In this document: in pieces, positions 13,515 through 35,644 of the stretch | Layout: every line of letters starts with the position of its first letter | Numbering within the stretch: position 1 is the first letter of the stretch | Source: Ignavibacteriota bacterium | GTDB taxonomy: Bacteria; Bacteroidota; Ignavibacteria; UBA10030; BY39 | Direction of reading: 5' to 3' | Length of the DNA stretch: 64,000 bases | NCBI GenBank assembly: GCA_003327435.1 | Contig: QOQV01000001.1 | Coordinates: 310,001 to 374,000, forward strand | Translations under genes and position numbers: made by a program | Notes under the pieces: model-generated | Told to the model about the DNA's origin: nothing | Database searches by the model: none | What the model saw: the letters and a program-made list of their open reading frames with translations, nothing else

Positions 13515-13521
13515 TTTGCCC

Positions 13522-14073: not shown

Positions 14074-14087
14074 ATTTAGTTTTCCTT

Positions 14088-14891: not shown

Positions 14892-14908
14892 ATTAAATCT
14901 CCTGAGTT

Positions 14909-15979
14909 TTATTTAGACGTTTTTTGGATTAGATCTTTTAGTTTTGAAACTATTTCTTCTGGAGTTGGAACTATACCACCCATACGACCATAGAAATCAA
15001 CGGGCACCTTACCTTCTACACCTAATTTTACATCTTCAATCATCTGTCCAGCATTCATCTCCACAACCAGCACACCTTTAATTTTAGAAGCCATTTGATT
15101 TAAAATTTTGTATGGATAAGGGTAAAGCGTAATTGGCCGAAGCAATCCAACTTTTATATTTTCATTTCTTGCAATATCCATAGCTTTTTGACAGATCCTT
15201 GCACTTAATCCAAAAGCAACAAACAAATATTCAGCATCATCTGTATTTAACAGTTCATATCTTACTTCATTCTGTTCGATTGTTCTATACTTTTGTTGCA
15301 ATCGAAGGTTAATTTTTTCCATTTCTTCAGATTGAATATGAAGTGATGTGATCACATTAGGTTCACGATCAGGGGTTTTACCAGTAGTTGCCCAGGGTTT
15401 AGGCAATTTATGTTCTGAAATATTATACTCTTTAAATTCCACACGTTCCATCATTTGACCCAGTGCACCATCTGCAAGTATCAATACAGGATTTCGGTAT
15501 TTATCAGCAAGATCAAACCCCAGGAAAACAAAGTCAGCCATTTCCTGCACGCTCGCTGGTGCAAGCACGATAAGATGATAATCACCATGCCCACCACCTT
15601 TAACTGACTGAAAGTAATCACCTTGTGAAGGTTGAATGGTACCTAAGCCAGGTCCACCACGGTTAATATTAATTAACAAACATGGTAACTCTGCACAAGC
15701 AATATAGGAAATGCCTTCTTGCATTAGACTAATTCCAGGACTTGAAGATGAAGACATTGCTCTTGCTCCAGCGCCAGCAGCTCCATAAATCATATTTATT
15801 GCAGCCACTTCGCTTTCAACTTGCATAACAATCATTCCGCGTTTTCTACCCTGGTCAGAAAGGTATTCAATTATTTCAGACTGTGGTGTGATTGGATATC
15901 CAAAGTAACAATCACAACCTGCACGAATTGCTGCTTCAGCTGCAGCTTCATTACCTTTCATTAAGCGCACTTCACTCAT
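14909..15979 (-). CDS. korA: 2-oxoacid:ferredoxin oxidoreductase alpha subunit
   Basis: 356 residues. GNEAAAEAAIRAGCDCYFGYPITPQSE at the start (broken here: KGNEAAAEAAI, then YFGYPITPQSE) is the alpha-subunit pyrimidine-binding region; MSSSSSPGISLMQEG near 94 is the domain I substrate/CoA loop. VLRP-like GLLRPITLYPYP near 280 opens the transketolase C-terminal domain. Overlap ATGA with the ferredoxin gene upstream (15976-15979) shows translational coupling. The family includes both 2-oxoglutarate (Kor) and 2-oxoisovalerate (Vor) enzymes; operon context favours Kor. Confidence 0.92.
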   Translation of the reverse strand: MSEVRLMKGNEAAAEAAIRAGCDCYFGYPITPQSEIIEYLSDQGRKRGMIVMQVESEVAAINMIYGAAGAGARAMSSSSSPGISLMQEGISYIACAELPCLLININRGGPGLGTIQPSQGDYFQSVKGGGHGDYHLIVLAPASVQEMADFVFLGFDLADKYRNPVLILADGALGQMMERVEFKEYNISEHKLPKPWATTGKTPDREPNVITSLHIQSEEMEKINLRLQQKYRTIEQNEVRYELLNTDDAEYLFVAFGLSARICQKAMDIARNENIKVGLLRPITLYPYPYKILNQMASKIKGVLVVEMNAGQMIEDVKLGVEGKVPVDFYGRMGGIVPTPEEIVSKLKDLIQKTSK

Positions 15980-18786: not shown

Positions 18787-19638
18787 TTATTTATAAGCAA
18801 AAATCATAGCATAAATAATCCATACCACCATAAAGAAGCCGATTGAGAGAGCAATCCATCCGAAAATTTTTATACCTCTTATGACAACTTCAGGATAAGG
18901 TTCCACAAGATATTTCTCAAGTTCACCACTTTCAATCAATTTCTGATAATCATCGGGACGATCCATTTTGTATTCTTCGAGTGGGACTCTACCAGTAAAA
19001 ATGCAGATATCCATTGGAAATTTTTCTGGTCTGAGATGAGTATTGAAAAAATGAACAGTAAAAATGAATCCTGTTGCGAGTAAAGCTTCATCACTATGAA
19101 TTATTGTGGCTACATTTATAAATTCTCCAGGAATAAATTTTGTAAAAAATTCTGGAAACCATAGTACGAGTCCAGTAGAACCGATTACCATCATTCCCCA
19201 GAAGACAGCAAAGTAATCAAACTTTTCCCAGTATGTCCACTTACCATATTTTGGTCTTGGTCCTAACCACAAAAACCATTTAATTGAGTCAACAAAATCT
19301 CTTAAATCTTTTTTTGTTGGTAACATTGTGTTTGGACCGAATAATAAATTTTTCATGGAGCCATATTCTCTCTTTTTTCTTTTCAATAAGTCAAATATGT
19401 GCGAGAAGAATATTATAAACATAATTGTAGCAGCAACCCGGTGAATGAAACCCGCAAATTCAAAACCACCAAACATTCTTGATAGAAATACCGCCCAGCT
19501 GGTATATGAAAATTTTAAAGTCATACCAGTTAACGCCAGACTCATAAAACTCAATATCATCCCAATGTGTAATATTCTATTAAATCTACTGAATCGAAGT
19601 ATTTGTTTTTGTTCATTCTCCTGATTTGTCATTTCCAT
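18787..19638 (-). CDS. cytochrome b-type membrane subunit (FdnI/thiosulfate-reductase gamma-like)
   Basis: 283 residues with five membrane segments. [20 protein letters not shown] near 20, [20 protein letters not shown] near 64, [20 protein letters not shown] near 128 and [20 protein letters not shown] near 170 supply the histidines for two b hemes. A fifth helix ([17 protein letters not shown]) ends the protein. It should exchange electrons with quinone and with the 19-heme cytochrome whose gene overlaps its start by 26 bases. Last gene of the multiheme operon. Confidence 0.88.
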
Positions 19639-21649
19639 TCTCTACCTCTTTTTCAATAGATTTTTCTGTTTTGTTTTTTTCTTCACTCGTTTCTTCATTT
19701 TTATTTTTTAATTTCGTATGTAATTGTCGCCTCATTTGTAAAGCCCTTGGTAACCATAACAATGTATGGATTCCACCTAAAACAAAAGTGAAAATTAGAA
19801 GACCTGTCATTCCCCAGAAACTCCAGTACAACCAGGGATATTTTTCAGGATCATGATGTGTAGCATGAGTCAGATAACCAGCAAAGCGGCGATTAGCTCC
19901 TGGATGACATTTCTGACAGGTTTTAACAACATTATTTCTACTTAAATGAGAGCGAATATCACTTACCGGGTAAATGTCGTGCGCACCATGACAATCATAA
20001 CATTTTGCGGTCTTCACATATCCTAACCTTGACACCTTTCCATGATATGTATCAAAATATGTTTTGGCTATCTCCTGATGGCATCTGCCACATTTACTCA
20101 TTATCTCAAACTTGAATGCATCAGCATCAGTGCGTTTTATTGTATGGGCTGAATGACAATCACGACAGGTAGGTAAATCTTTTGGTTCACTATGCCAGGT
20201 CTTTGAATGAACACTTGACTCAAACTTTTCTTCAACACCATGATGACACTTACCACAGGTAACAGCAATATTATCATGATGGACACTTGAATTCTTATCA
20301 GATGCTGGCAAAATCTTATGTGGCGTGTGACAATCTGTACACATAGCTGTCACAACCAACCCACTTTTTAATAAACCTTTACCATGTATACTTTCTTGAT
20401 AATTTTCGATAACTTGATGCTCGCTACCCGTATATCTTACTGCTGCTTTTTGTCCTTCCTGATGACATTTTGCGCAAAGTTTCGGAACATTTAACGGGAA
20501 AACAGGCGAATTCGATTCTTTCTTACCTAAAACACTATGTGTGCCGTGACATTCTATACAGGTTGGAGCATTTGGATCATTACGAGCAAGATATATCCCA
20601 TGGATACTTTGCTGGAAATCATTTCCAACTTCTATATGGCAGGAAGAGCAATCAACTTTTGATTTTATTGTTTCACACGCTCTAACTTTAGATGGTGAAA
20701 CTTCTGTGTGACATTGGCTGCATGCAACACGATTATGCTTCGAGCCAGCTATTAAATCCTTGCTCACATATAAGGATCTACCATCTTTTGAACTTTTTAA
20801 ATCAACCCTTGAATGACATGAAAGGCAATCTTTATCAGACATTCCTTGTTCGTAGAATACCTTCCTAACTTTATGTGGTTGATGACAGTCGACACATGCA
20901 GGCAAAACATGAAGTTCTTTCTCCCACAGTTCTCCTCTTATAACCTTTCGGTGAACTTCTTCAATTTGTCGATGGCAACTTGCACAAGTTGCTGCTATAT
21001 TACTGCGTGCGATCGAGGATCTGGGATCATTATGAGGTAAAATATCATGTGAACGATGGCAGGATACACAGGTTGCTGTAACTGCAAGCCCTTTTTTCAA
21101 CAATCCAACTCCGTGAATACTTTCAGAATAATTCTCAAGTATATTTGATTGGTGAATATTTCTCTGTAATTGAACAGGAGCCCCTTCTTTATGACATTTA
21201 CCACACAGGTAAGGAATTTTAAGAGGTGCTACTACAGAATTAACATCACTAATAGGTAAAATATCATGATATCCGTGGCAATCTTTACAACCTGGTGCTA
21301 ATTTATCACCTCTTACATATGCCTTACCATGTAGTCCAATTAAATATTTTTCTTTTTCTTTCGAGTGACAGTTCCCACAATCCACTTTTTCCAGGTCCTC
21401 ATTATGTGGGAAATCGCTACCTTCCAGATCAGTATGACAATTTATGCAATTTAATTCCTTATGTACTGATTTAGAAAAATGCTTTTCATTGAAATATACA
21501 GATACAGTTCTCCCACCACTCACACCTTTAATTGTAATATCAGAGTGGCATGATAAGCACTCATCATTTTCCTGAGAAAGGGTGAATTGTAAACAAAGGA
21601 AGCTTAATAAAATTATAGGAAGTAATTTCGATTTACTTCTTTCTTTCAT
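19613..21649 (-). CDS. 19-heme periplasmic cytochrome c with C-terminal membrane anchor
   Basis: 678 residues. Signal peptide 1-25 (LLPIILLSFLCLQFTLS). I count 19 CXXCH sites between residues 31 and 590, most in repeated pairs of the form CxxCHxxHDILP followed by CGKCH, as if built by duplication of a two-heme module; SIHGxGLLK occurs twice. A membrane helix near 614-634 (FWGMTGLLIFTFVLGGIHTL) and a charged tail rich in Lys and Glu end it. The gene overlaps its neighbours on both sides (4 and 26 bases). It should carry electrons over a long distance along the membrane surface or across the periplasm. I do not recognise a named family of this exact heme count. Confidence 0.88.
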   Translation of the reverse strand: MKERSKSKLLPIILLSFLCLQFTLSQENDECLSCHSDITIKGVSGGRTVSVYFNEKHFSKSVHKELNCINCHTDLEGSDFPHNEDLEKVDCGNCHSKEKEKYLIGLHGKAYVRGDKLAPGCKDCHGYHDILPISDVNSVVAPLKIPYLCGKCHKEGAPVQLQRNIHQSNILENYSESIHGVGLLKKGLAVTATCVSCHRSHDILPHNDPRSSIARSNIAATCASCHRQIEEVHRKVIRGELWEKELHVLPACVDCHQPHKVRKVFYEQGMSDKDCLSCHSRVDLKSSKDGRSLYVSKDLIAGSKHNRVACSQCHTEVSPSKVRACETIKSKVDCSSCHIEVGNDFQQSIHGIYLARNDPNAPTCIECHGTHSVLGKKESNSPVFPLNVPKLCAKCHQEGQKAAVRYTGSEHQVIENYQESIHGKGLLKSGLVVTAMCTDCHTPHKILPASDKNSSVHHDNIAVTCGKCHHGVEEKFESSVHSKTWHSEPKDLPTCRDCHSAHTIKRTDADAFKFEIMSKCGRCHQEIAKTYFDTYHGKVSRLGYVKTAKCYDCHGAHDIYPVSDIRSHLSRNNVVKTCQKCHPGANRRFAGYLTHATHHDPEKYPWLYWSFWGMTGLLIFTFVLGGIHTLLWLPRALQMRRQLHTKLKNKNEETSEEKNKTEKSIEKEVENGNDKSGE

Positions 21650-23811
21650 ATTGACTTTTCTGAAATTTGTTCTTCCTCAGTTTCAAGGATCTTCCTCTCT
21701 TCACGTTTGATTCTTTCCAACTCAAGTGGATGTTCTTCTTGCATTTCTGTTTCGGTTAAGGTTCCTTTAATCCATGCTAAATTCATCGGGTAAACATCAG
21801 GATTAAATATAACAAAATAGATATGCCAAACAAAAATTGAGAGCGTTGCTAACCATGCTTCATAATAATGGATTGTTCTTGCAACATCCCACCCTAATTT
21901 GGATAATAAACCAATGAAAGTATTATCGAACCAGAGTATAAAACCAGTAATTACCATTACCAGTGTTCCCCACACCAACGCCCAGTATTCACTTTTTTCT
22001 ATGTAGCTAAAACGATCAAATTTTGGCTTATAATTACTCAAGCCTAAATTATATTTAAGAACAGCTATCGCATCTGCAATATCCTTTCGTACCGGTAGTA
22101 AATCTTTTATTAGTTGGCGGCCTCTTTCGGTAAAACTTATATAATAAATATGATATAAGCTTGCCATTATCATGACAACTGCTGCTACACGGTGTAAAAT
22201 GCCTCTAATCTCAAATACATATGAGCTTATACTTTTTATTGATAAAACCCACCACGCTTCAGGATATTTTAGCATAAATCCAGTTATCACTAAAGTGAAG
22301 AAACTCAACAGCAAAGACAAATGTTGAATTCTCTCGGATAGTGTCATCCGTAAATACAATCTGTGACTTACATGATGATGAGGTATAAGACCTCTTCTGA
22401 TCATTAAATTCCTTTTTGCCTTTTTTATAAAATCCAGTAAATTGTGGAAAAACATTCCACCAACTATCGTTACAATCAGAATAATGTAAGCTGTAGAAAT
22501 AAAATACAATATCGGTTCTTCTTTTGATTTTATATTGATATGCACAGCACCTTTTGCAAAGTTTTCATTAGCCCCAGGATGACAGCTTCCGCAGGTTTTT
22601 GCCAAATTTGATTTATGAATCCGGGATGTTGAATCGCTTGAACTTTTAATATCATGATATCCATGGCAGGATGCGCAATTGGCAACTGTTAGATCACCGG
22701 CTTTCCCTGCCAAGCCATGATAACTATCCGCAAAAGTTTCGAAGCGTTGACTTGCAACCCCATATTTTTCACTTAATTTTACAGATTCATGGCACGGTTT
22801 ACATACCTGTCCAGAAACATTTATTGCTGCAACAGGTGATCTTGGATCATCATGTGGTAAAATCTTGTGTTCACCATGACAATCAGTACAGGTTGCTGAG
22901 GATAGAACACCTTTAGATAAAGCTTTCCCATGTTCACTTTCTAAATAAATTTTTGCTTCCTCTTCATGACACTTCCCACAGGTCTTTGCGATATTATTTT
23001 TGAAAACTGTTGATGTGGGGTTACTACCTTTCTTCATATTATGTGCACCATGGCAATCGCTACATGTAGCTGCATTTAACTTACCTGATTGCATTGCAAT
23101 CCCGTGGACGCTTTCTGAATATCCCTTTATAAAAGTGGCAGTTGGACTTACTGTAGCGCGGACATCTGGATTATCAAGATGGCATTTCAAACACACAGCT
23201 GCTTCGTGCTGACGGCTTACTTCTGATTTATCGGAAGTAACTGCTTGAATTGTATGTTCGCCATGGCAATCAATACAGAACGGTGCTCCCTTCACACCTG
23301 CAATCAATCCCTTTCCGTGATCACTTTCAAGATATTGTTTCACAACATCGTTATGACATTTACCACATAATTCTGCTTCAATCTTTCTATTTTCTGTTTT
23401 TTTCATATCTTCTAATGAAATAATTTCATGACTCCCGTGGCAATCTTTACATTCTGCGCCTCCTTTTACCCTTGCGTGAACACTTTGAGTATATAAATTG
23501 ACCCTTTCTCCATCGTGACAATTTAAACACTTTACTGGTTTAATTTTTTTCGCATGTGGAATTTCTCCAGGATCAAATCCAGTATGACAGTCGATGCACT
23601 CAAGCACTGAATGAACAGATTTTGAAAATCGCACACTGTCGACCCAAAGTGATATTGTTTTACCAGACTTATCCATCGTCAGCGACTTGTCACTATGACA
23701 AGCTAAACAATCATCATTACTTTGAGTATAAGATATGCTTGGAAATAATATGAAATTTAACAATAAAACTGAAATTAGATATTTTGAGAAACATGTTTGC
23801 ATAAGATTCAT
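21646..23811 (-). CDS. 13-heme cytochrome c fused to a cytochrome b membrane domain
   Basis: 721 residues. Signal peptide about 1-29. I count 13 CXXCH motifs from CLACH near 36 to CGSCH near 414, many followed by HGxH-type sequences. After a helix at about 440-462 comes a four-helix cytochrome b part (about 500-690): RIQHLSLLLSFFTLVITGF, ILHRVAAVVMIMASLYHIYY, WALVWGTLVMVITGFILW and ARTIHYYEAWLATLSIFVWH. It resembles the separate cytochrome b at 18787-19638, so the operon has two such domains, one fused and one free. A single chain could accept electrons from quinol and pass them into the heme wire. Start and stop overlap neighbours by 4 bases. Confidence 0.88.
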   Translation of the reverse strand: MNLMQTCFSKYLISVLLLNFILFPSISYTQSNDDCLACHSDKSLTMDKSGKTISLWVDSVRFSKSVHSVLECIDCHTGFDPGEIPHAKKIKPVKCLNCHDGERVNLYTQSVHARVKGGAECKDCHGSHEIISLEDMKKTENRKIEAELCGKCHNDVVKQYLESDHGKGLIAGVKGAPFCIDCHGEHTIQAVTSDKSEVSRQHEAAVCLKCHLDNPDVRATVSPTATFIKGYSESVHGIAMQSGKLNAATCSDCHGAHNMKKGSNPTSTVFKNNIAKTCGKCHEEEAKIYLESEHGKALSKGVLSSATCTDCHGEHKILPHDDPRSPVAAINVSGQVCKPCHESVKLSEKYGVASQRFETFADSYHGLAGKAGDLTVANCASCHGYHDIKSSSDSTSRIHKSNLAKTCGSCHPGANENFAKGAVHINIKSKEEPILYFISTAYIILIVTIVGGMFFHNLLDFIKKAKRNLMIRRGLIPHHHVSHRLYLRMTLSERIQHLSLLLSFFTLVITGFMLKYPEAWWVLSIKSISSYVFEIRGILHRVAAVVMIMASLYHIYYISFTERGRQLIKDLLPVRKDIADAIAVLKYNLGLSNYKPKFDRFSYIEKSEYWALVWGTLVMVITGFILWFDNTFIGLLSKLGWDVARTIHYYEAWLATLSIFVWHIYFVIFNPDVYPMNLAWIKGTLTETEMQEEHPLELERIKREERKILETEEEQISEKSI

Positions 23812-24197
23812 TTTTTATTTGATAATAATTCTTTGTTTTTTTCAACAATTAAATTATCAACAGCCATTGTTAACTGTGATACATCAATTGGTTTATAAAG
23901 AAGAAAATCTGAATATTTTCTATATCCAGCTTCGAGTTGAGTTTCATTCATTCTATATATGTATAACAACAATATTTTAATTTTAGGGTATTTTGTTTTA
24001 ATACGTTTTATCTTACTTAATAAATTACCATCAGATATTGGTACATCGATTATAAGAAGATCAACATCAACATCCTCAATATTTATCGAATTGGTTGTGT
24101 ACCTGATTTGATACTTGGATTGTAGTAAAAGAGATATGCTATTACATAAATCCAGATCAGTACTATAGACAAATATTTTATGATTTTCCGTTATCAT
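23808..24197 (-). CDS. single-domain response-regulator (receiver-like) protein
   Basis: 129 residues from the ATG at 24197 (MITENHKIFVYSTD). An earlier in-frame start at 24254 adds 19 hydrophobic residues that do not fit the receiver fold. DLDLCNSI near 13 stands for the acidic pocket, LLIIDVPISDG near 53 contains the phosphoacceptor Asp, and FLLYKPIDVSQL near 105 the conserved Lys. The usual Thr/Ser before the fourth helix looks replaced (ILLLYIYR). No output domain. Its stop overlaps the 13-heme cytochrome start, so it is translated with the cytochromes; it may act by protein contact in the two-component network encoded nearby. Confidence 0.7.
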   Translation of the reverse strand: MITENHKIFVYSTDLDLCNSISLLLQSKYQIRYTTNSINIEDVDVDLLIIDVPISDGNLLSKIKRIKTKYPKIKILLLYIYRMNETQLEAGYRKYSDFLLYKPIDVSQLTMAVDNLIVEKNKELLSNKK

Positions 24198-24215
24198 TTT
24201 AACATAAATAAAAAA

Positions 24216-24230
24216 CCAATAATTATGCCA
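24216..24230 (-). promoter_or_regulatory. weak candidate sigma-54-like element
   Basis: On the minus strand TGGCATAATTATTGG matches TGGCAC-N5-TTGC except for the last base and one T. It lies only 18 bases before the chosen start at 24197, which would leave a very short leader. It resembles the better elements at 2277-2291, 30959-30973 and 48315-48329. Treat as tentative. Confidence 0.3.
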
Positions 24231-24330
24231 GAAAAATATTTCTAAAATAATCAATTTTTAAATTTTGAAGGAATCTTACCTTTAATTTTACTAAAATTAA
24301 GAAATTTTATAGGAAAATTTCTATTTTTAG

Positions 24331-24364
24331 AAAAAAAAAGTCGGAATCTTTTAAGATTCCGACT
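24331..24364 (-). terminator. rho-independent terminator of the nine-heme cytochrome gene
   Basis: A 12-base inverted repeat (24339-24350 and 24353-24364, core GTCGGAATC/GATTCCGAC) follows the 24387 stop on the minus strand and is followed by a T-run (A-tract 24331-24339 on the plus strand). It separates the nine-heme gene from the receiver-cytochrome operon, so that operon needs its own promoter. Confidence 0.88.
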
Positions 24365-24386
24365 TTTAAAAATAGCTATAAGTATT

Positions 24387-27206
24387 CTACTTCAGGAATA
24401 ACATCTTCTTTACAGCTGTATAATCTCCAGCAACCATCTTGTAAAGATAAATTCCGCTATGTACCTGATTTCCAGATTTATCTTTACCATTCCAGGAGAG
24501 ATTATAATAACCTGCCTCATGATGACGGTTAACTAAAGTTACTATTTCCTGTCCGATTGCATTGTAGATTGTTATCTTCACATTGCCAGACATCGGAACC
24601 TGATATTTAATACTTGTACTCGGATTAAATGGATTCGGATAATTTTGACCCAACGCAAAGGTTGTCGGTAGCTCAACATTATTATCAGCGTTAAGTACTG
24701 TGATAGACACGGAAGCTACTTTACCTTTGTTTCCTGAAAAATCAACACCCCTGACCACATAGTAATACTTAATACCCTGTTGAACATCATTATCGACAAA
24801 GTTAGTTTGAGATGTTGTTCCAATTGGTGGAGTACTTTCGTAATCGAAATCAGGTGTCAATCCCCGATAGATGGCAAAGTACTTAACATCTGGATCTGAT
24901 GTTTCCTGCCATTCCAGTTTTACTGCATCGACAACCATCTTAGCAGTCAAACTAAGTGGCGGATTTGGTACTAAATTATCAACTGAATATCCAGAATCTA
25001 CTTTTGACCAGACAAGTGGGGTATAATCAGCTGCATGTCCAGAAATTTTGAATTTAGTCCAATAGATTCCATTATCTACAGTTGAATCAAATAAAGTTGG
25101 AACATTAACTGAATAGAGATCAAGACCTGCAACAGGCGCCCATCCTACAAAAGTCCAGACAACCCCAGCTACATTGTACTGCTGACCAACATCAAGAGAT
25201 TTAAAATCAATGCCATTGAAATCACCCACTTCACTGACCTTACCGACTGGGCTATCATCCATTCTCCAGATAGCGTATGTTTTAATTGGATTAAGAGTAT
25301 CGTCTTCGCCAGGGAATTTATACCATATTACCTGAACTGCTTTACCCTGATCATTTGGGACGTCGCGAATAGCACCAATCTGACCAGCGAATAATGCATA
25401 ATAAAGATTATCTATGCTATTCTGCAAAAGTGAAACAACATATTTAGGATTATGGACTCCATTGCTTCCGTCCTGTGCAACATACAGATAATTCCAGAAC
25501 GCTTTCTTAAACAACACAGAATCTGGACTTGTTCGTATCAAGTTTCGATCGATTGTTTCACTTCCAAAAGGAGGTAATAACTTTGCCAACTTCTTCATTA
25601 AGCCATTTACCTCATTAATGAAAGGTTCAACCGTTCCATTTTGATCATAATCGTATGATGCAGTAATATCTTCAAATTTTGTGATACCCGTATGGCAATT
25701 AACACAACCAGTTATATTATGGATTTCTTCTCCGACATCAGGTTTGTAACGCATATTCCAGGTGTGCATACCGATTTTATCACGCGCTGGTGTGCCTGTA
25801 TCTGGAGTTGCAGACATATGGCATCCCACGCAGGTATTTTCCACATGTTGATGTGCTATACTGGATGGTAATGTTGCACCAAATGTATAACCGTTTTTGC
25901 CAAGAAGCACATCAGTTGCACCTCTGTAATGTGGGCTCCATGTTGTACTCATTGCAGTTAAAATATAAGTTTCATTATTTCTACGATACTTGTGGCAACT
26001 TACACAAATTTTTCCTGCACCAAAATCGAAACTTGAATAATTATAACCATTACCAAGAGTATCTGAAGAAGCTGGTACAGTTCTTAATTCCATTGAATGT
26101 GGTTCATGGCAGGTTTGGCATGTAATTTTAGTATGTGCAAGTGGACCATATCCGGCTGCAACACTATTATTAAAAGGTTTACCTTTTGTGAAATTAACAA
26201 ATGCCTGTCCGTCATGGCAACGCACGCAGGCATTCAGGTTATAATTTGTTCCAACAGGAGTGCCAGTTGTTCTAAATGAATTCGACCAAATGGCTTCACT
26301 ATGTCCGGAGTTTTCCCATTGGACAACTCTGTTATGTCGCCATGGCTCATCATGGCACTGAGCACAAACACCAGCATTCATAGTTTTTGGTTGTGTGCCA
26401 GCACCAAAATGCATCGGATCTTTTGGACCATGGCAGCTTTCACAGGATATAGTCCCAACCAAGCTTAATGTTTTTTTATCTGTTGCCAATAACGAATCGA
26501 ATAAACCTGGCCGGCCTGGTTTCCATTCATTCCAAATAAACCCTACATTTTGTGCAACATCATCAAACCCGCCATTAACAGCCATAGCATTAAGATTGTA
26601 GCCCGTTGTATGACATTTGAAGCAACTTTCACCCCAATAAGGTGCAATCTGACCATTCATACCACGCTCGAACATTGTAGCATGATCAGATGTTTTCCAG
26701 GTAGTATACAATGTAGGTGTTGCACTTGAATGGCAGGAAGCACAATTAAAACCAGCCCCGGCAACATCTTTCCAGTTTGTCCCAGTGTAATTAGATGCAG
26801 TAATTTTTTGTGTGGTGGAATGTGTTCCAGCAGCGGTTGTAATTGTTAAACGAACAATATAATCACCAACTAAATCAGGTTGGAACGAGGTCATTTGTGT
26901 AGTCGGAGAATTAAAGTCTGCCAAGGAACCACTGGGCTTTGAGTCAAATTCCCACAAATAAGTATCTGCAGGATTGAATGCGGTATTACCAGAAGTATCC
27001 CATCCCGTTAACCAGACCATTGTACCAACACCAACAGTACTTAATCCGGAAGAAACATAATCCCAACTATTAGGATTTGGCAATCCTAACTCATGCAGCT
27101 TATGGATCGACATAGCTTCGATCTTTATCGCTGCTTTCTGAGAGAAGGATTGATTAAAGCAAATCAAAAGAACAAACAGAAACAAAATGATTTTGAAGTT
27201 TTTCAT
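24387..27206 (-). CDS. secreted nine-heme cytochrome c with PKD-like, FN3-like and type IX sorting domains
   Basis: 939 residues. Signal peptide 1-22. Residues about 50-140 look like a PKD/REJ-type beta domain (YLWEFDSKPSGS; GDYIVRLTITT). Nine CXXCH sites follow between about 155 and 505 (CASCH, CFKCH, CESCH, CAQCH, CVRCH, CQTCH, CVSCH, CVGCH, CVNCH). Residues about 755-840 resemble fibronectin type III (WQETSDPDVKYFAIYRG). The last 85 residues are a type IX secretion sorting domain: LGQNYPNPFNPSTSIKY ... ITIYNAIGQEI ... SGIYLYKMVAG. The design predicts a cell-surface or released electron-transfer protein. Single gene, closed by its own terminator. Confidence 0.92.
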   Translation of the reverse strand: MKNFKIILFLFVLLICFNQSFSQKAAIKIEAMSIHKLHELGLPNPNSWDYVSSGLSTVGVGTMVWLTGWDTSGNTAFNPADTYLWEFDSKPSGSLADFNSPTTQMTSFQPDLVGDYIVRLTITTAAGTHSTTQKITASNYTGTNWKDVAGAGFNCASCHSSATPTLYTTWKTSDHATMFERGMNGQIAPYWGESCFKCHTTGYNLNAMAVNGGFDDVAQNVGFIWNEWKPGRPGLFDSLLATDKKTLSLVGTISCESCHGPKDPMHFGAGTQPKTMNAGVCAQCHDEPWRHNRVVQWENSGHSEAIWSNSFRTTGTPVGTNYNLNACVRCHDGQAFVNFTKGKPFNNSVAAGYGPLAHTKITCQTCHEPHSMELRTVPASSDTLGNGYNYSSFDFGAGKICVSCHKYRRNNETYILTAMSTTWSPHYRGATDVLLGKNGYTFGATLPSSIAHQHVENTCVGCHMSATPDTGTPARDKIGMHTWNMRYKPDVGEEIHNITGCVNCHTGITKFEDITASYDYDQNGTVEPFINEVNGLMKKLAKLLPPFGSETIDRNLIRTSPDSVLFKKAFWNYLYVAQDGSNGVHNPKYVVSLLQNSIDNLYYALFAGQIGAIRDVPNDQGKAVQVIWYKFPGEDDTLNPIKTYAIWRMDDSPVGKVSEVGDFNGIDFKSLDVGQQYNVAGVVWTFVGWAPVAGLDLYSVNVPTLFDSTVDNGIYWTKFKISGHAADYTPLVWSKVDSGYSVDNLVPNPPLSLTAKMVVDAVKLEWQETSDPDVKYFAIYRGLTPDFDYESTPPIGTTSQTNFVDNDVQQGIKYYYVVRGVDFSGNKGKVASVSITVLNADNNVELPTTFALGQNYPNPFNPSTSIKYQVPMSGNVKITIYNAIGQEIVTLVNRHHEAGYYNLSWNGKDKSGNQVHSGIYLYKMVAGDYTAVKKMLFLK

Positions 27207-27342: not shown

Positions 27343-28728
27343 TCAAACATCGTGATAATTTTTCATAGTTGTCTTACGAATCAGACCTAATTCCTGCAAT
27401 CTCCTGTATAATGTAGAGACACTAATATCTAATGCTCGAGCAGTCAATTCTTTATCATTATTAAAATATTTCAATACTTTTTCTATATATTTCTTTTCGA
27501 ATTCCCTGATTGCCTGGTCTAAATTTTTTATGTTATCGTTAAGATATTCCTTATGCTCATTAGATAAATTCTCAGGTAAATCGGACAATGTGATTTTATC
27601 TCCAGAGGCAAATATCATTGAACGTTCAATCGCATTTTCCAGCTCTCTAACTTCACCTTTCCAGGTATGATTAATTAAAGTAGTTAAAGCATCGTTCTCA
27701 ATACCTTTAATACCTTTATTCATTCGTCTGTTATATTTGTTTATAAAGTGATTGACGAGTAATGGTATATCTTCTTTTCTTTCGGATAATGATGGGAGGT
27801 TGATTTGTACAACATTTAATCGATAATATAAATCTTCTCTAAATTTACCTTCCTCAACAAGTTTATTCAAATCTCTATTCGTAGATGCAATGATTCTAAC
27901 ATCAACCTTTACTGGATTTGAATCGCCAACTGGATATATTTCCATTTCCTCGATCGCGCGTAGTAATTTTACCTGTAGGTTTAATGGAATCTCGCTAACC
28001 TCATCCAAGAAAAGAGTTCCTTTATCAGCTGATTTGAATAATCCATCTTTATCACAAACAGCATCAGTGAAAGCACCCTTTTTATGACCAAATAATTCGC
28101 TTTCGAATAATGTCTCTACCACAGCTCCACAATTAATGGTGATAAAAGGTTTATCTTTGCGTGGGCTATTATGATGTATTGCACGAGCAACTAATTCTTT
28201 TCCTGTACCGCTTTTACCATAAATTATGACATTAGCACAAGAATTTGCAACATATTTTATAATTTCAAATACTTTTTGCATAGCAGGGCTTTTACCAATA
28301 ATATTCTCGTAATCATAATTCAGATACAACTGGTTTTTTAATCTTGTATTTTCAAGAACTAAATCTCTATGTACTGCAATCCGTTTAATCCTGAATAATA
28401 AATCATCAAAGTCAATTGGCTTAATTATATAGTCAAATGCACCATGTCTTAATGCTGATATAGCGCTCTCCACAGATGCAAATGCAGTAATAATAATGAC
28501 AAATGTTTCCGGTGTTGCTTGTCGAATTCTTTCAAGCAATTCAATACCTTTCATTTCTGGCATTTCTAAATCAGTAATTACAATATCAAAAGGCGTGCTC
28601 AGATGCTTATCGAGAGCTTCTCTACCGTTCTTTGCAGATTCAACATAATAATTTTCCTTCTGAAGTATGAAGGTAATTGAATCGCGAATGATTTCTTCAT
28701 CATCAACTATTAAGATTCTCTCAGCCAT
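27343..28728 (-). CDS. NtrC-family sigma-54-dependent response regulator (GAFTDA variant)
   Basis: 461 residues: receiver (1-120, phosphoacceptor in FDIVITDLEMPEMKG, Lys in DYIIKPID), AAA+ domain (about 140-375; GKSGTGKELVARAIH Walker A, GTLFLDEVSEI Walker B), and a Fis-type helix-turn-helix at the end (ELTARALDISVSTLYRRLQ). The sigma-54 contact loop reads GAFTDA instead of GAFTGA. Its start overlaps the ccmF stop by 8 bases. Cognate kinase is probably the triple-PAS kinase at 32431-34230. Targets are unknown; candidate sigma-54 promoters lie in this window. Confidence 0.93.
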   Translation of the reverse strand: MAERILIVDDEEIIRDSITFILQKENYYVESAKNGREALDKHLSTPFDIVITDLEMPEMKGIELLERIRQATPETFVIIITAFASVESAISALRHGAFDYIIKPIDFDDLLFRIKRIAVHRDLVLENTRLKNQLYLNYDYENIIGKSPAMQKVFEIIKYVANSCANVIIYGKSGTGKELVARAIHHNSPRKDKPFITINCGAVVETLFESELFGHKKGAFTDAVCDKDGLFKSADKGTLFLDEVSEIPLNLQVKLLRAIEEMEIYPVGDSNPVKVDVRIIASTNRDLNKLVEEGKFREDLYYRLNVVQINLPSLSERKEDIPLLVNHFINKYNRRMNKGIKGIENDALTTLINHTWKGEVRELENAIERSMIFASGDKITLSDLPENLSNEHKEYLNDNIKNLDQAIREFEKKYIEKVLKYFNNDKELTARALDISVSTLYRRLQELGLIRKTTMKNYHDV

Positions 28729-30928
28729 TTAGTTCTTTATTCATTCTATTTTCTTTAATCCTACGACTATAAGCTATAAAAGTACCCAATACAAGTATAA
28801 TCGCACCGAACCAGACAAAATTCATAAACGGTTTTACAGTAAATTCCACAAGAACCATCTCAGTTACTGACGATTCGTTTTCACCAAATCCATAAAATGT
28901 AAGAGCAATCATCTTTTCATCTGCATTTATATCGGAAAGTGCTACTGATTTTTTATCCGCTCCTGATGGCAATTCTACAGGATTTGATATTCTCTGATTT
29001 TGTTGATATAACATTGCTGGCTTAATTACATAATCTTTCCCGTTATACTTTACCTTCACATTTGCAGCAATTTTAATGTCCTCACTCATTCCATGATTTT
29101 CAAATTCAAAATTCTGAAATGTCAGTTCATAGTTTTCAAATTCTTTTGTATCACCTTTTTTCAAAACTATATTACTCTTATTTTCATTCGATGATTGTTG
29201 TCTATCCATTACAGATATGTAAATGTCATACAATGGGAATATTGTAATATCTGGTTCTCGCATCCAGGCATTATTATATGTACTAAAATAAAGTTTTGGT
29301 TTCTTATTTATGCTCTTTCCGTCTTTTTCCATTTCAATATTTATTTCTGTTTTACCAGAGGGGTTATCTGAAATTCCATGATATATTAGACTATATTCTC
29401 CAACCTGTGATGGTTTATGTAATTCAAGCATTGCTCTTTCAGTTTTATCAAAATTACCAGAAACGATTATTCCCATGAACATTATTGCCACACCAAAGTG
29501 CGCAAGCGGACCACCAATATTTAGAAAACTTACTTTCAAATAAGATAACAGTGTTAAAAAATTAGAAACAGTAGCAAAAACAGATGATAAGATAAAAATT
29601 AATATTTTTACATCACGAACACCTGCAATATATGCAATCAATACACCTACAATAGCACCGACAATGGAAATACTTAAAAATCGAGTAAATGACTCAATCT
29701 TCGAATTACCCCACAATAAAAGTGGAGTGATTCCTAATAACAGAAGGATTAATATTCCTAATGGGAAGTTAACTCCGTTATAAAATGTTATTTCAACAGG
29801 GGTTGGTGTTGAAGAAAAAATCCCAGTGATTATAGGAGACGAAGTACCAATAAATGTAAATAACCCACTTAATAACAATACCACGATACTCCAGAATAAA
29901 CCACTTTCACGATTCAATTTAAAAGGATCAAAACTATTGCTCTGGATTTTTTTGAAGTTCTTAATTATAAAAAACAAACTGATAACTAATATCACCAGCA
30001 TAAATCCGATGAGGAAGTGATTCTGGCCTTCACCTGCGAACGAGTGCACAGAGAAATTTGCAAGTACACCACTTCTTGTCAAAAATGTTGCATAAATCAC
30101 CAGAACAAATGCTAATATGGAAAGCAACAAATTAAAACGTACAAGAGAGTTCTTCATTTTCTGAATCAAAATTCCGTGGAACAATGCAAGTGTTACCAAC
30201 CATGGGATAAGAGATGAATTCTCTACAGGATCCCAGCCCCAGTATCCACCCCAACCCAATACTTCATATGCCCAGAAACCACCAATAATAATACCGGCAC
30301 CAAGTGTAACTGAGCCTATTAAGCTCCATCTTAAACTATGCTTAATCCAGTTCACATAATCATTTTTTAAAAGTGCAGCAATTGATAATGCAAAAGGAAA
30401 AGTAGTTGCAGCATATCCTAAAAATAGAACTGGTGGGTGTACAACCATCCACGGATCTTGAAGTAACGGATTTAAACCAGCACCATCGGGTGGAACAACT
30501 GGCAATACTTCGAAAGGACTTTTATCAATCATTAACAAGATTAGGAACGATTGCACTAACATAACGACTATCATAGAATAGGATTCATACCTGCCTACAC
30601 CTTTCATAAATGGAATACCCAATAAGCTTATATATAAAACCCATAGTAGGTATGATCCTTCCTGTCCAGCCCAGAAAGCAGAAATAAGATATCCAAAAGG
30701 TAAAGAACGGGAACTATATCTATAAACATAGTCGTACTGGAATTGATGTGATAATAATAAATATACAAGGTAAGCGCTCGTAACAATTAATAAAAATGTA
30801 TTAAATCTATATACAATTCTTGCTATTTTCAGTAATTGTGAGTTACCCCGTGCAGATTGAAAATAAAAATATGCTGTAATTAAAGAGAGTGCAAAAGCTA
30901 TAATTAATAATATTAAACCTATATCCAT
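28721..30928 (-). CDS. ccmF: cytochrome c-type biogenesis protein CcmF (heme lyase subunit)
   Basis: 735 residues with about fifteen membrane helices. The heme-handling WWD motif is seen in WGGYWGWDPVENSSLIPW near 228; PPVLFLGYAATTFPFAL near 165 and FLTRSGVLANFSVHSFAG near 287 are typical CcmF/NrfE sequences. A periplasmic loop region from about 510 to 700 precedes the last helix. It attaches heme to apocytochromes, which fits the 41 c-type heme sites encoded between 19613 and 27206. It lies in an operon with an NtrC-type regulator and has a sigma-54-like element upstream. Confidence 0.93.
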   Translation of the reverse strand: MDIGLILLIIAFALSLITAYFYFQSARGNSQLLKIARIVYRFNTFLLIVTSAYLVYLLLSHQFQYDYVYRYSSRSLPFGYLISAFWAGQEGSYLLWVLYISLLGIPFMKGVGRYESYSMIVVMLVQSFLILLMIDKSPFEVLPVVPPDGAGLNPLLQDPWMVVHPPVLFLGYAATTFPFALSIAALLKNDYVNWIKHSLRWSLIGSVTLGAGIIIGGFWAYEVLGWGGYWGWDPVENSSLIPWLVTLALFHGILIQKMKNSLVRFNLLLSILAFVLVIYATFLTRSGVLANFSVHSFAGEGQNHFLIGFMLVILVISLFFIIKNFKKIQSNSFDPFKLNRESGLFWSIVVLLLSGLFTFIGTSSPIITGIFSSTPTPVEITFYNGVNFPLGILILLLLGITPLLLWGNSKIESFTRFLSISIVGAIVGVLIAYIAGVRDVKILIFILSSVFATVSNFLTLLSYLKVSFLNIGGPLAHFGVAIMFMGIIVSGNFDKTERAMLELHKPSQVGEYSLIYHGISDNPSGKTEINIEMEKDGKSINKKPKLYFSTYNNAWMREPDITIFPLYDIYISVMDRQQSSNENKSNIVLKKGDTKEFENYELTFQNFEFENHGMSEDIKIAANVKVKYNGKDYVIKPAMLYQQNQRISNPVELPSGADKKSVALSDINADEKMIALTFYGFGENESSVTEMVLVEFTVKPFMNFVWFGAIILVLGTFIAYSRRIKENRMNKELNG

Positions 30929-30958
30929 ATATTTTTTACCTTTATATTGTTGTTTATT

Positions 30959-30973
30959 TCAATATTTATGCCA
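30959..30973 (-). promoter_or_regulatory. candidate sigma-54 promoter of ccmF and the downstream regulator
   Basis: On the minus strand TGGCATAAATATTGA matches TGGCAC-N5-TTGC at all but two positions (T for C in the -24 box, A for the last C). Its -12 box ends 31 bases before the ccmF start. It differs by one base from the element upstream of the hydrogenase operon (48315-48329). The remaining part of the 133-base gap 30929-31061 is AT-rich with nothing else obvious. Confidence 0.5.
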
Positions 30974-31061
30974 AAAGAAAACAATAAAATTTCTTATAAA
31001 TTTTGAATATCCTTTTTAATTTTAGGAAATTGTAGTATTATATTTATCAAAATTGAGATTT

Positions 31062-32414
31062 TTATTTAATTCCCAATTCATCAATTTTACGATACAAAGA
31101 AGAAACACTTATACCAAGTTCACTAGCTACCAGATTTTTATCATATCGATGAAATTCCAGCCGACTTTTGATATAATCTCTTTCAAATTCCTTGATTTTA
31201 TCTTTAAGTGTAGAAGAAGTTTGAGAAAACCCTTGAATGGATTTCTTCCTAAATTCTTCTGGTAAATCTTTAAGAGTGATATATTCCCCATCAGCAAATA
31301 TAAGAGCTCTCTCAATTATATTTTCAAGTTCACGAACCTGCCCTTTCCAAGTATGATTCATTAAAACCTTTATCACATCATTCGTAGCTCCGTGTACAAC
31401 TTTTCCCATTTTCTTACTATGTTTCTTTATAAAATGGTGAACCAATGAGGCTATATCCTCTTTTCTTTCTTCGAGGGCAGGGAGGTGAATTTCTACTATG
31501 TTTAAACGATAAAACAAATCTTCCCTGAATTTTCCTTCCTCCACCAATTCACGCAGTGATTTATTCGAGGCAGTGATAATACGTACATCCACTTTTATTG
31601 GTGTAGTACTTCCAACTGGCAATACTTCTCTTTCCTCAATTACTCTCAGAAGTTTAACCTGTAAGTGGAGTGGGATTTCACTTACTTCATCTAGAAAGAT
31701 TGTACCACCGTCAGCAATCTTAAAAAGTCCATCTTTATCTGAAGTTGCACCAGTGAAAGAGCCCTTTTTATGTCCGAATAATTCACTTTCGAAAAGTGTT
31801 TCTACAATTGCACCACAATTTATAGCTACAAATTTTTGTGCTGCTCGTTTACTATTGTAATGAATTGCTCGTGCAATCAGTTCTTTTCCTGTACCACTTT
31901 TTCCGGTAATCAAAACAGTTCCATCCGTTTTTGATACTCTTTTTACTAACTCAAAAACCTGTTTCATCACAGGGCTTTCACCAATAATATTTTGAAAATC
32001 ATATTCTCTGTTTAATTCTGCACGTAGATTTATATTTTCCTGAAGTAAATCTTTATATTCAAATATCTTCCTAACACGATGTAACAAATCCTCAAACTCA
32101 AGTGGTTTTAAAATGTAATCCGATGCACCCTTACGAAATGCTGATATGGCAGTCTCAATTGACGCATAAGCAGTTATTAAAATAACAAATGTGTCGGGTG
32201 AATACTGCCTTGTCTTTTCCAATAATTCAATTCCTTTAATCTCAGGCATTTCTATGTCTGTAATCAGTAAGTCGTAATTGTCGGATTTTATCTTCTCAAG
32301 GGCTTGCAATCCATTCGAAGCTTCATCGACTTCGTAGTCCTCTTTTCTTAAGACAAATGCAAGCGATTCGCGTATCAAGGATTCATCATCTACAACTAAT
32401 ATTTTCTTCTTCAT
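31062..32414 (-). CDS. NtrC-family sigma-54-dependent response regulator (GSFTGA variant)
   Basis: 450 residues with receiver (YDLLITDIEMPEIKG; DYILKPLE), AAA+ (ITGKSGTGKELIARAIH; GTIFLDEVSEI) and Fis-type DNA-binding domain (NLVASELGISVSSLYRKID). It is about as similar to the regulator at 27343-28728 as expected for paralogs and shares the same architecture. The sigma-54 loop reads GSFTGA. It starts 16 bases after the stop of the histidine kinase gene and is the likely direct partner of that kinase. Confidence 0.93.
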   Translation of the reverse strand: MKKKILVVDDESLIRESLAFVLRKEDYEVDEASNGLQALEKIKSDNYDLLITDIEMPEIKGIELLEKTRQYSPDTFVILITAYASIETAISAFRKGASDYILKPLEFEDLLHRVRKIFEYKDLLQENINLRAELNREYDFQNIIGESPVMKQVFELVKRVSKTDGTVLITGKSGTGKELIARAIHYNSKRAAQKFVAINCGAIVETLFESELFGHKKGSFTGATSDKDGLFKIADGGTIFLDEVSEIPLHLQVKLLRVIEEREVLPVGSTTPIKVDVRIITASNKSLRELVEEGKFREDLFYRLNIVEIHLPALEERKEDIASLVHHFIKKHSKKMGKVVHGATNDVIKVLMNHTWKGQVRELENIIERALIFADGEYITLKDLPEEFRKKSIQGFSQTSSTLKDKIKEFERDYIKSRLEFHRYDKNLVASELGISVSSLYRKIDELGIK

Positions 32415-32430: not shown

Positions 32431-34230
32431 TTATGTTATAGGTAAACTAATAGTAAAAGTGCTTCCTTTTCCTACCTGGCTTTCAAAGTCAATATCACCA
32501 CCAAAATTTTTCACAATTCCATAACTTACCCACAAACCCAGGCCTGTACCTTCTCCAACTTTTTTCGTAGTAAAGAAAGGTTCAAATATTTTACTTTTTA
32601 TCTCATCTGGAATTCCTTTGCCTTTATCGATGAAATGAATTTTTATATTATTACCATACAACTCTGATTTAACTTTAATCTCTCCTGGCTTACCATCCAT
32701 TGCGTCAACAGCATTCAGTAAAATATTTATAAACACCTGGATAATTTGATCCTGTACAAGTGTTATTTTTGGAATTTTATCACTCAATTCGAGAACGAAA
32801 TTTATATCCCTGGATTTTTTACCATACCTTACAATATTAACTGCATCCTGCAATACTTTATTTACATCAGTTTGTCTAATCTCATAATTTGATGGTCTTG
32901 AAAAATCAACAAGTTCGCGAATTGTTCGCGCAATTCTATTAATTTGGTTTTTAACGAGTTCGAGCTTTTCGATAGCAAATGTATCGTTTGTTGTTCTCTG
33001 TATTACCTGAACTATCGATGAAATTGAGGTAAGCGGATTTCCAACTTCATGGGCGATTCCTGCAGCCAGCTGACCTACCACCGATAATTTTTCTGCATGG
33101 CTTATTTGTCGTTTTAACTTCTTAATTTCAGTTACATCCCGTACAATTGCAGAACTTCCAATTATATTTCCACCTGAATCTTTAACCAGTGTTCTGGTCA
33201 TTTCAATTGTGATTCTTCTACCATCCTTCGTTAACCGTTCTGTTTCATAATTTCTTATAAAACCTTTCTTCCTAAACTCTTCATTAAGAAAATCCAGCTC
33301 TCCACTTTTAATTAAATCAGGTGGCACCAAGACTGAGAAATTTTTTCCAATTATCTCTTCTGCTTTATAACCATAAATTTTTTCAGCTCCTTTATTCCAG
33401 GATCTAATATTAAAATCACAGTCCAAACCAATTATGGCATCCGTTGAATCATCAAGTATCGCAGCCATATAAGCAGAAACTCTGGCAAGCTCGTTTTCTA
33501 ATTTCTTTTGCTCGGTTAAATCATTATGTATACCCAAAAATCCAATTAATTTACCTGATGGATCTATAATTGGAGAAATTAGTAGTCTTTCATTTATAAT
33601 ATTACCATTTTTTGTTTTGTTCTCAATTTCACCGGTCCAAACTTTTCCTTTTAATATTGTTTCCCACACATTTTTCCAGAATTCTTTTGGTTGGCGACCG
33701 CTATTTAAAATATTTGGATTCTTTCCTAACAACTCCTGTTTGGTATAACCAGTTACTTTTTCAAATGACGGATTAACATAAATAATTTTTCCCTCAACAT
33801 CAGTTATTTCAATTGGATTAACGGTATAATGAATGGCATTTGCAAAACGAAGAAGTTGCAATTGTGCCCTTCTTTGTTCGCTTATATCGCGTGCACTTAC
33901 AAAATAAAGTGCATTTTCACCTTTTCCATTTAACTTGAATATTGAAATTGAAACATTAACATTTTCCGAGGATGTATTTAATAACTCAGCCTCGATTGAG
34001 GAAGCTTTTTTTTCTTTGATTGAATTATGAAAAACCTTTTTAAAATTCTCCCTCGACACAGCCGACAACAGTTCCACAATGGGTTTATTTAATAATTCTT
34101 CACGAGAAATATTGAATTTCTCAACAGCCGATGGATTAACATCCAATATTAATCCATCCTGATTTACAATAAAACAATAATCTGTGGCTTTTTCAAATAA
34201 CTCTTCGCCTTTTATATATAATTTTTTCAC
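32431..34230 (-). CDS. soluble triple-PAS sensor histidine kinase
   Basis: 599 residues, no membrane segment. Three PAS domains: about 8-115 (FIVNQDGLILDVNPSAVEKF), 125-245 (ITDVEGKIIYVNPSFEKVTG) and 255-370 (IGLDCDFNIRSWNKGAEKIYG), each ending in a PAC-like segment. HisKA (QLAAGIAHEVGNPLTSISS near 392, phospho-His in AHE) and HATPase_c (GKGIPDEIKSKIFEPFF; GTGLGLWVSYGIV) follow. The cytoplasmic PAS set suggests sensing of redox state, oxygen or a small ligand. It forms an operon with the NtrC-type regulator just downstream. Confidence 0.93.
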   Translation of the reverse strand: MKKLYIKGEELFEKATDYCFIVNQDGLILDVNPSAVEKFNISREELLNKPIVELLSAVSRENFKKVFHNSIKEKKASSIEAELLNTSSENVNVSISIFKLNGKGENALYFVSARDISEQRRAQLQLLRFANAIHYTVNPIEITDVEGKIIYVNPSFEKVTGYTKQELLGKNPNILNSGRQPKEFWKNVWETILKGKVWTGEIENKTKNGNIINERLLISPIIDPSGKLIGFLGIHNDLTEQKKLENELARVSAYMAAILDDSTDAIIGLDCDFNIRSWNKGAEKIYGYKAEEIIGKNFSVLVPPDLIKSGELDFLNEEFRKKGFIRNYETERLTKDGRRITIEMTRTLVKDSGGNIIGSSAIVRDVTEIKKLKRQISHAEKLSVVGQLAAGIAHEVGNPLTSISSIVQVIQRTTNDTFAIEKLELVKNQINRIARTIRELVDFSRPSNYEIRQTDVNKVLQDAVNIVRYGKKSRDINFVLELSDKIPKITLVQDQIIQVFINILLNAVDAMDGKPGEIKVKSELYGNNIKIHFIDKGKGIPDEIKSKIFEPFFTTKKVGEGTGLGLWVSYGIVKNFGGDIDFESQVGKGSTFTISLPIT

Positions 34231-34312: not shown

Positions 34313-35644
34313 TTAAAACTTAAAATGTACCTTAGGACTATTTACCGAAATCATTACTTTAAACTTATTAAATTCAGATTGCAGATCAAAAATCGATTGA
34401 TAGAATGCTTTGCGCTTTTCTTTACCAACTACATATCTGGCGCTTAAGATTGGTTTCCATCCGTCTAAAAAAGAACTTTCAAGTGTTATGATATAATCTA
34501 CTTTTATTTTGTTTGCCACTTTAGTCAGGGTCAGATTAACTTTCTGTGCAATCTCTTTTTCCTTAAAAAGCACCTTTTCAAATTGCTTAACTTCCATCCG
34601 CTGCACTTTAGGATGGCGAGAATAGTCACGAGTTTCTGAAGTTTTAGCAGAATCACTTAAAAGTTTCATAAACTCATTATCCAGAACTGAAACCTCTACA
34701 TCCCAGTCAATTGCATCATGTATATCTATCAGACTATGCAGAAAATTTAGATAACGTTCTTCTATTGTTCTAACAATTTTTTCCCTACCCATTTTAATTG
34801 TCCAGAATTCCAAAGGGACAAGAATCTCATTAGTGCGTATCTGATTAAGAATACATGAATGATTATATCTCAAAGAAATTGCTTCTTTTGGACTCAGTAT
34901 GTGTTCACCTGTTTTTGCAATTACAAATTTTTCAAACTGTATCTTGCTTAGATACAACCTCACATCACCATAATCAAGTCCAAACACAACATTCTTATCG
35001 TCTACACCCTTAATCGGTAATTCAATCGACGGATATCCTTTACCTTCACTATTGGGAGCATAACTGAATCCATATAAATAAAGCCAATCATTTTCTGAAA
35101 TTGCAATCTCAGTTTTTTTCTCTCTTTTGAAATAAACCGATGGTTTCTCTTTTAATTCCTCCACTTCAATAACTGATTCAATTGACTCTTTTGTAATTTC
35201 TTCTCTTTCCTTGGGTATATCGCTGGTAACTACCGGTTCTTTAATAGGTTCAATAATATCAATTGGTTCGGTTTTATCAGATTTTTCATCTATTACTTCT
35301 GTTAATTCTTCTTTAACAATTTCACCTGGTTCAGTTGTCTCGGATGGTATTGTACTAACAATAGCTTCATTTTCTATATTAATACTTTCTTCTGCAATTA
35401 TATTTTCTTTAACCTGTGGTTGGATTTCTCTCAGATACATTAACTTCAAGCGATTAATGATTTCTTCTTTAAGATTTCCAGTTAATAATTTTTCGAACTC
35501 TGAGAGAAATTCTTCAGCAACTTTTTCAGGTGGAAATTCTAAGAACTTTTTCAGTACTTCTTTTAGATATTCCCTTTTTTTTAACCTCTCCGATATTTCG
35601 TCCAATATCAGTTGTGCTAATTTTTCTTGAAAATTTGAATTCAT
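34313..35644 (-). CDS. GvpL/GvpF-like domain protein with acidic linker (orphan)
   Basis: 443 residues. Residues 1-85 are helical and charged; about 85-185 is a low-complexity acidic linker rich in Glu, Ile, Pro and Thr; about 190-443 resemble gas vesicle proteins GvpL/F: WLYLYGFSYAP at the start, LRYNHSCILNQIRTNEILVPLEFWTI in the middle (short form: NEILVPLEFWTI), AIDWDVEVSVLD, and a final FNKFKVMISVNSP. This is pattern recognition at low similarity. No gas vesicle shell gene (gvpA) is seen here. Orphan GvpL/F-like proteins may serve another assembly role; function unknown. Confidence 0.5.
   Translation of the reverse strand: MNSNFQEKLAQLILDEISERLKKREYLKEVLKKFLEFPPEKVAEEFLSEFEKLLTGNLKEEIINRLKLMYLREIQPQVKENIIAEESINIENEAIVSTIPSETTEPGEIVKEELTEVIDEKSDKTEPIDIIEPIKEPVVTSDIPKEREEITKESIESVIEVEELKEKPSVYFKREKKTEIAISENDWLYLYGFSYAPNSEGKGYPSIELPIKGVDDKNVVFGLDYGDVRLYLSKIQFEKFVIAKTGEHILSPKEAISLRYNHSCILNQIRTNEILVPLEFWTIKMGREKIVRTIEERYLNFLHSLIDIHDAIDWDVEVSVLDNEFMKLLSDSAKTSETRDYSRHPKVQRMEVKQFEKVLFKEKEIAQKVNLTLTKVANKIKVDYIITLESSFLDGWKPILSARYVVGKEKRKAFYQSIFDLQSEFNKFKVMISVNSPKVHFKF

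Follow-up and report, generated by a model that had tools for sequence, protein, structure and literature searches.

The window (the whole stretch of DNA analysed, 64,000 nucleotides) carries on its minus strand, at positions 24387–27206, a gene for a 939-residue nonaheme cytochrome that ends in a T9SS type A sorting domain (ATG start; the stop codon occupies 24387–24389). The domain layout was taken from a full-length AlphaFold2 model (mean pLDDT 82.6); the nine-heme core was also folded separately (pLDDT 81.8), the FN3 domains having dominated the fold search made with the whole model. A type I-like signal peptide without a lipobox (residues 1–22, positions 27141–27206, minus strand as are all features of this protein; helical over residues 2–22 in the model) is followed by an N-terminal PKD/Ig-like β-sandwich (residues 24–140, 26787–27137), which had no match in the Pfam scan and owes its label to the fold (superposition on PKD domains with Z 8.4–8.9 and rmsd 2.5–3.8 Å). 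The nine-heme core (residues 150–520, 25647–26759), delimited by CXXCH motifs, profile and fold, leads into a C-terminal three-helix bundle of the NrfA/OcwA superfamily (residues 529–606, 25389–25622, with GVHN at 583–586), placed by the models and by alignment with OcwA. Two FN3-like domains come next, both assigned by fold match: one at residues 607–740 (24987–25388), missing from short (~700 aa) homologues, and one at residues 745–839 (24690–24974; Z 13, rmsd 1.7 Å). The sorting domain itself (residues 848–939, 24390–24665) closes the chain with ...KKMLFLK. The first-pass annotation had claimed nine CXXCH sites, a PKD-like and an FN3-like domain and a C-terminal Por sorting signature for this chain, each of which was recovered; the domain at residues 607–740, a second FN3-like one, it had overlooked.

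There are exactly nine CXXCH motifs (residues 155, 195, 255, 281, 327, 363, 401, 459, and 501). Shuffled sequences of the same composition averaged 0.01 such motifs and never held more than 1, and all nine motifs are kept across the homologues; a chance cluster was rejected on these grounds.

The gene sits in a block that reads, on one strand, PAS histidine kinase (32431–34230), NtrC-type response regulator (31062–32414, the second of two), CcmF-like cytochrome c assembly protein (28721–30928), NtrC-type sigma-54 response regulator (27343–28728), the nonaheme cytochrome, a stand-alone degenerate receiver-like protein (23808–24254, which also adjoins the nonaheme gene in several relatives), and three membrane-associated cytochrome genes. 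The first of these three encodes a 13-heme cytochrome fused to a b561-type membrane domain (21646–23811), an architecture like that of CbcL (PMC6295460) and presumably a quinol:cytochrome oxidoreductase; the second a 19-heme cytochrome with a C-terminal membrane anchor (19613–21649); and the third a b561/formate-dehydrogenase-gamma-like membrane cytochrome b (18787–19638), the presumed partner of the 19-heme protein. All are on the minus strand, as is a tetraheme c554-like protein, presumably periplasmic, further off at 2570–3109. CbcL family members act as inner-membrane quinol oxidases or quinone reductases in extracellular electron chains (PMC6295460). The nearest relative, G136, preserves the whole block; G082, G066, and G058 preserve parts of it. 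A GvpL/GvpF-like protein (34313–35644, Pfam 46 bits) adjoins the sensor kinase; no further gas-vesicle genes were noticed among the window proteins scanned.

Directly behind the nonaheme gene lies an intrinsic terminator-like hairpin with a 14 bp stem (24336–24367, minus strand); this terminator is strong, so that the CbcL-like genes need not be co-transcribed with the nonaheme gene, and the cytochrome genes downstream of the hairpin may have their own promoter. No sigma-54 promoter was found ahead of the nonaheme gene. Weak TGGCAC-like sigma-54 −24/−12 matches, adjoining the NtrC-type regulators, lie upstream of the receiver-like gene (24190–24260) and of CcmF (30930–31070) and are present at both genes in G136 as well, such matches across the window not being above chance.

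A predicted fold had been named in the first-pass annotation as a check, and it brought out a likeness which that annotation had overlooked: by sequence profile and predicted fold alike, the nearest matches of the core (residues 150–606) are OcwA and OmhA, cytochromes found on the surface of Gram-positive iron reducers. Searching the PDB with a profile of homologues returned OcwA (6i5b) at E 8e-33, OmhA (6qvm) at 1.5e-22, and NrfA at 2e-14. The predicted core matches OcwA and OmhA with Z 12.8 over ~340 residues (against 6i5b, rmsd 4.0 Å over 338 residues), whereas scores for other members of the superfamily fall between 9.0 and 9.7 (octaheme nitrite reductases about 9.5, MccA 9.2, NrfA 9.0). 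In the alignment, the CXXCH motifs are colinear, one to one, with the nine OcwA hemes, and the models place a globular heme domain before the three-helix bundle, as in OcwA. OcwA itself is a cytochrome of the cell surface, able to reduce iron oxides and to exchange electrons with electrodes (PMC6703420), and it has earlier been assigned to a clade with nonahemes from Gram-negative bacteria (PMC7829351), so that Gram-negative relatives of OcwA are not new.

Seven histidines outside the CXXCH motifs are invariant or nearly so in 26 relatives from the class and in 31 sequences from many phyla, and align with those of OcwA. Seven such residues for nine hemes leave two hemes without a conserved distal histidine; the alignment points to hemes 2 and 5, matching the hemes that are open in OcwA and that there face distal His-His pockets (PMC6703420). 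The pockets, as read from the alignment only, are altered: that of heme 2 presents Arg290-His291, the second His of the OcwA pair being retained in 26 of 31 relatives, and at heme 5 the His-His of OcwA is replaced by an aromatic residue (Trp) and Gly/Ser. With the OcwA pockets retained in part only, the nonaheme protein cannot be presumed to share OcwA's substrate chemistry.

These pockets bear on what the protein might reduce. A surface-exposed or secreted reductase acting on a soluble acceptor (nitrite, hydroxylamine, or an oxyanion of sulfur, selenium, or arsenic) rather than on minerals or electrodes would be in keeping with a superfamily that includes NrfA, the octaheme nitrite reductases, and MccA, with the partly retained distal His at heme 2, and with OcwA itself, which reduces nitrite and hydroxylamine in addition (PMC6703420). 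We nevertheless regard it as unlikely, if worth keeping in mind: OcwA and OmhA, the surface metal reductases, outscore the nitrite and sulfite reductases; the protein has no CXXCK, Arg408 at the position of the NrfA-type Tyr (CHVEYY), and a second pocket whose His pair is missing; and neither surface display nor a conduit is needed to reach a soluble acceptor.

The sorting domain scores 35.2 bits against TIGR04183 (cut-off 23; residues 856–935) and 27.4 bits against PF18962, just above the cut-off of 27 by a margin of 0.4 bit; both curated cut-offs are thus exceeded. The first-pass annotation had suggested a genome-wide search for type IX parts, an absent apparatus speaking against surface attachment by this route. 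The genome (2.63 Mb, 98.6% complete) encodes SprA (1115 bits), PorU (964 bits), and PorV (311 bits), the PorU and PorV genes being adjacent, and contains 93 sorting-domain matches at E <= 0.001, 92 of them besides the nonaheme protein. In the open-access literature (subscription papers lay outside the search) we found no paper joining T9SS with multiheme cytochromes as cargo, and no demonstration of T9SS export of a nine-heme holoprotein. The same genome holds a second tagged multiheme cytochrome on contig 5 (L120:5372–6727; 452 aa, 8 CXXCH), weakly similar to the Ext cytochromes of selenite/tellurite operons. Elsewhere, T9SS-tagged multihemes that are not orthologous to the nonaheme protein (7–9 CXXCH) lie beside its gene at L125:7218–8786, L132:7274–8986, L050:12045–13595, and L052:7556–10555.

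Among 149 sampled genomes of the class the nonaheme core is present in 79, and it spans 43 of 79 genera (E <= 1e-50). The class homologues read with an intact C-terminus all end in a sorting domain, one homologue broken at a contig edge being uninformative on this point, and they follow two layouts, with the tag placed either directly after the bundle (about 700 aa) or after an FN3 pair (about 900–1000 aa). A different protein fragment with 9 CXXCH (L025:1–1098, minus strand; 366 aa, cut by the contig piece) lies near the nonaheme homologue of G069. In a genome collection with names, relatives of the nonaheme occur in many phyla, and we typed their tails in 50 genomes using an HMM built from class members. 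The T9SS tail is restricted to Ignavibacteriota/Bacteroidota, KSB1, Calditrichota, Neomarinimicrobiota, and Latescibacterota; other homologues stop 20–50 residues past the bundle and often open with a lipobox. SprA scores above cut-off in 16 of 17 genomes with a tagged homologue vs 7 of 33 without the tag (Fisher p 7e-7, ancestry uncorrected), the latter dividing into 0 of 8 with the tail described next and 7 of 25 others.

Eight homologues (L041, L045, L046, L047, L049, L060, L073, L108), five of them from named Verrucomicrobia, share a C-terminal region of ~130 aa, GDGVPNWLKYALGLDP... ending QxFFRVVxTP, which has no Pfam or NCBIfam match and occupies the position of the T9SS domain of their relatives; it may be a surface-display or anchoring domain. 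In the tree, this group is nested within the tagged group, and an AU test rejects the tagged proteins as a single clade (p 0.007). The simplest reading is that a lineage lacking T9SS exchanged the sorting tail for another. We see in such an exchange the best indirect evidence that the tail serves as an address label and that the protein is destined for the outside.

The distribution of the tag also bears on whether the C-terminal domain could instead be a structural Ig/FlgD-like module of a protein that remains in the periplasm, as might be read from PF13860 (FlgD_ig), which at 40 bits outscores PF18962 at the same place. Of the alternatives weighed here this is the least probable: TIGR04183 is well above its cut-off, the domain stands at the extreme C-terminus with basic residues at the end in the homologues read, the genome holds many further copies of such a domain, and the tag is found only alongside SprA, with one exception, and is replaced in the SprA-less Verrucomicrobia. 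Surface attachment through T9SS, as first proposed for this gene, is hence supported by inference, from a tag above cut-offs, the machinery, the 92 further matches, and the way in which the tag tracks SprA.

The same contig carries, 34.7 kb from the nonaheme gene and outside its operon, a conduit-like trio (C18:296998–300738) of a 427-aa barrel-like protein, a 14-heme protein, and a 9-heme lipoprotein. The 427-aa protein has no family in Pfam, NCBIfam, or PDB sequence searches and is a predicted barrel, as judged by its sequence pattern and its fixed place beside the 14-heme and lipoprotein cytochromes. The trio forms part of a longer run (L118, C18:290001–310000, at 6998–15302) of 9-heme lipoprotein, 14-heme, barrel-like, and 11-heme proteins, a cytochrome b, and a 6-heme NapC-like membrane protein, which is probably an electron conduit with its quinol oxidase. 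Porin–cytochrome complexes have been noted in Ignavibacteria earlier (PMC7399161).

The barrel is found in 76 of the 79 nonaheme genomes vs 19 of the 70 others (Fisher 3e-20, ancestry uncorrected), and two of the three nonaheme genomes that lack it are <80% complete. Linkage is seen as well as co-occurrence. One cluster of <20 kb in each of G016, G110, and G097 joins the nonaheme gene, NtrC, an 18-heme protein with its b-type subunit (CbcL-like), a 17-heme protein, a tri/tetraheme, and the conduit trio; in G116 and G008, the nonaheme gene is linked with conduit genes; and in a member of the Calditrichota (L052), homologues of the trio share a gene block with the tagged nonaheme. Homologues of the window's tetraheme protein (2570–3109) occur within the nonaheme–conduit clusters of G016, G110, G097, and G116. 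The first-pass annotation had taken T9SS display for an outlet different from porin–cytochrome conduits, and this part of its proposal is not supported, given the conduit set in the same genome, the barrel in nearly all nonaheme genomes, and the shared clusters. T9SS would move the protein, not electrons, and the co-occurrence and clustering imply that its display adds to conduits without replacing them. The possibility that the nonaheme protein is itself a transmembrane conduit was considered and rejected.

Taken with gene linkage and co-occurrence, the computed domains, heme spacing and fold, and the tag with its machinery lead us to favor, as the probable reading, an OcwA/OmhA-type nonaheme terminal oxidoreductase that would be exported to the surface by T9SS, fed by the conduit chain, and reduce an extracellular acceptor. 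Its export, heme loading, redox partner, direction, and substrate we infer as follows. The protein would be made with a Sec signal peptide and receive its hemes in the periplasm (the second gene upstream encodes a CcmF), would cross the outer membrane through the SprA pore, and would there lose its sorting domain to the sortase PorU, which would anchor or release it. Electrons would pass from quinol to the CbcL-like 13-heme/b561 protein, to the 19-heme protein with its b561 partner, or to both; from these to periplasmic multihemes, such as the tetraheme protein at 2570–3109; and on through the porin–cytochrome conduit (barrel, 14-heme protein, and 9-heme lipoprotein) to the surface nonaheme. 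The final acceptor would most likely be Fe(III) minerals, humics, shuttles, or an electrode. In the class Ignavibacteria, to which the genome analysed most likely belongs, Melioribacter roseus grows with Fe(III), and its genome paper posits a hypothetical outer-membrane Fe(III) reductase, unnamed there (PMC3534657).

The same chain might run in reverse, with electrons taken up at the surface through oxidation of Fe(II), a metal, or a partner cell and delivered to the quinone pool via CbcL/MtoC-type proteins. Homologues of CbcL, MtrH, and MtoC occur in iron reducers and iron oxidisers alike, and direction is not readable from any sequence feature (PMC6295460); a cultured class member, however, grows heterotrophically with Fe(III) as its acceptor (PMC3534657), and oxidative TCA genes adjoin the window locus, a weak pointer against uptake. 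We hold this reversal to be quite improbable. Under the favored outward flow, the best reading is a division of labor in which T9SS would bring the terminal oxidoreductase to the surface and electron transport would fall to the conduit. Whether this extends beyond the present gene is an evenly balanced matter: across the FCB group, multiheme cytochromes may routinely be exported by T9SS; they would pass through SprA fully hemylated and folded, be anchored by the sortase as the outermost element on porin–cytochrome chains, and have their tail swapped on entry into a lineage with another display system, as in the nested Verrucomicrobia.

If true, the proposal would join T9SS and extracellular electron transfer, two machineries usually studied apart. 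Known T9SS cargo consists mainly of enzymes, adhesins, and virulence proteins, and explanations of extracellular electron transfer in diderms invoke lipoprotein cytochromes seated on porin conduits. With a widespread relative of OcwA displayed by T9SS, Ignavibacteria and neighboring phyla would have a defined surface terminal reductase, and the OcwA design would reach past Gram-positives by a clear route of delivery; T9SS transport of a protein with nine covalent hemes would become testable.

Of the known systems, OcwA of Thermincola potens (6i5b; PMC6703420) resembles the nonaheme protein in its nine hemes, its heme domain with three-helix bundle, and its seven conserved histidines, and as a surface terminal reductase in presumed role; its host, however, is monoderm, it lacks the PKD, FN3, and T9SS domains, and it carries an extra β-domain within the heme core. 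OmhA of Carboxydothermus ferrireducens (6qvm; PMC7829351) has the same core fold (Z 12.8–14.8) and is likewise surface-associated and tied to Fe(III) respiration, but has eleven hemes and belongs to the S-layer of a Gram-positive, without T9SS. NrfA, the octaheme nitrite reductases, and MccA share ancestry with the nonaheme protein in hemes 5–9 and the three-helix bundle, whereas they are periplasmic, bear five or eight hemes with CXXCK or other active-site motifs, and match with Z of only about 9; membership of NrfA was rejected on the nine CXXCH motifs, the lack of CXXCK, and the Arg at the Tyr position in the alignment. MtrC/OmcA and OmcB would do the same job, that of the last cytochrome outside the outer membrane and downstream of the conduit, yet they differ in fold, are lipoproteins, and belong to the conduit itself, where the nonaheme protein has a T9SS tag and no lipobox; MtrC/OmcA membership was rejected on the latter, on the nine hemes in place of ten, on a core that is not MtrC-like, and on TIGR03507, which is not among the matches listed up to E 0.01. 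With T9SS type A cargo the nonaheme protein shares a signal peptide and a C-terminal Por_Secre_tail, in a genome that encodes SprA, PorU, and PorV; it differs in that the cargo here is a nine-heme cytochrome.
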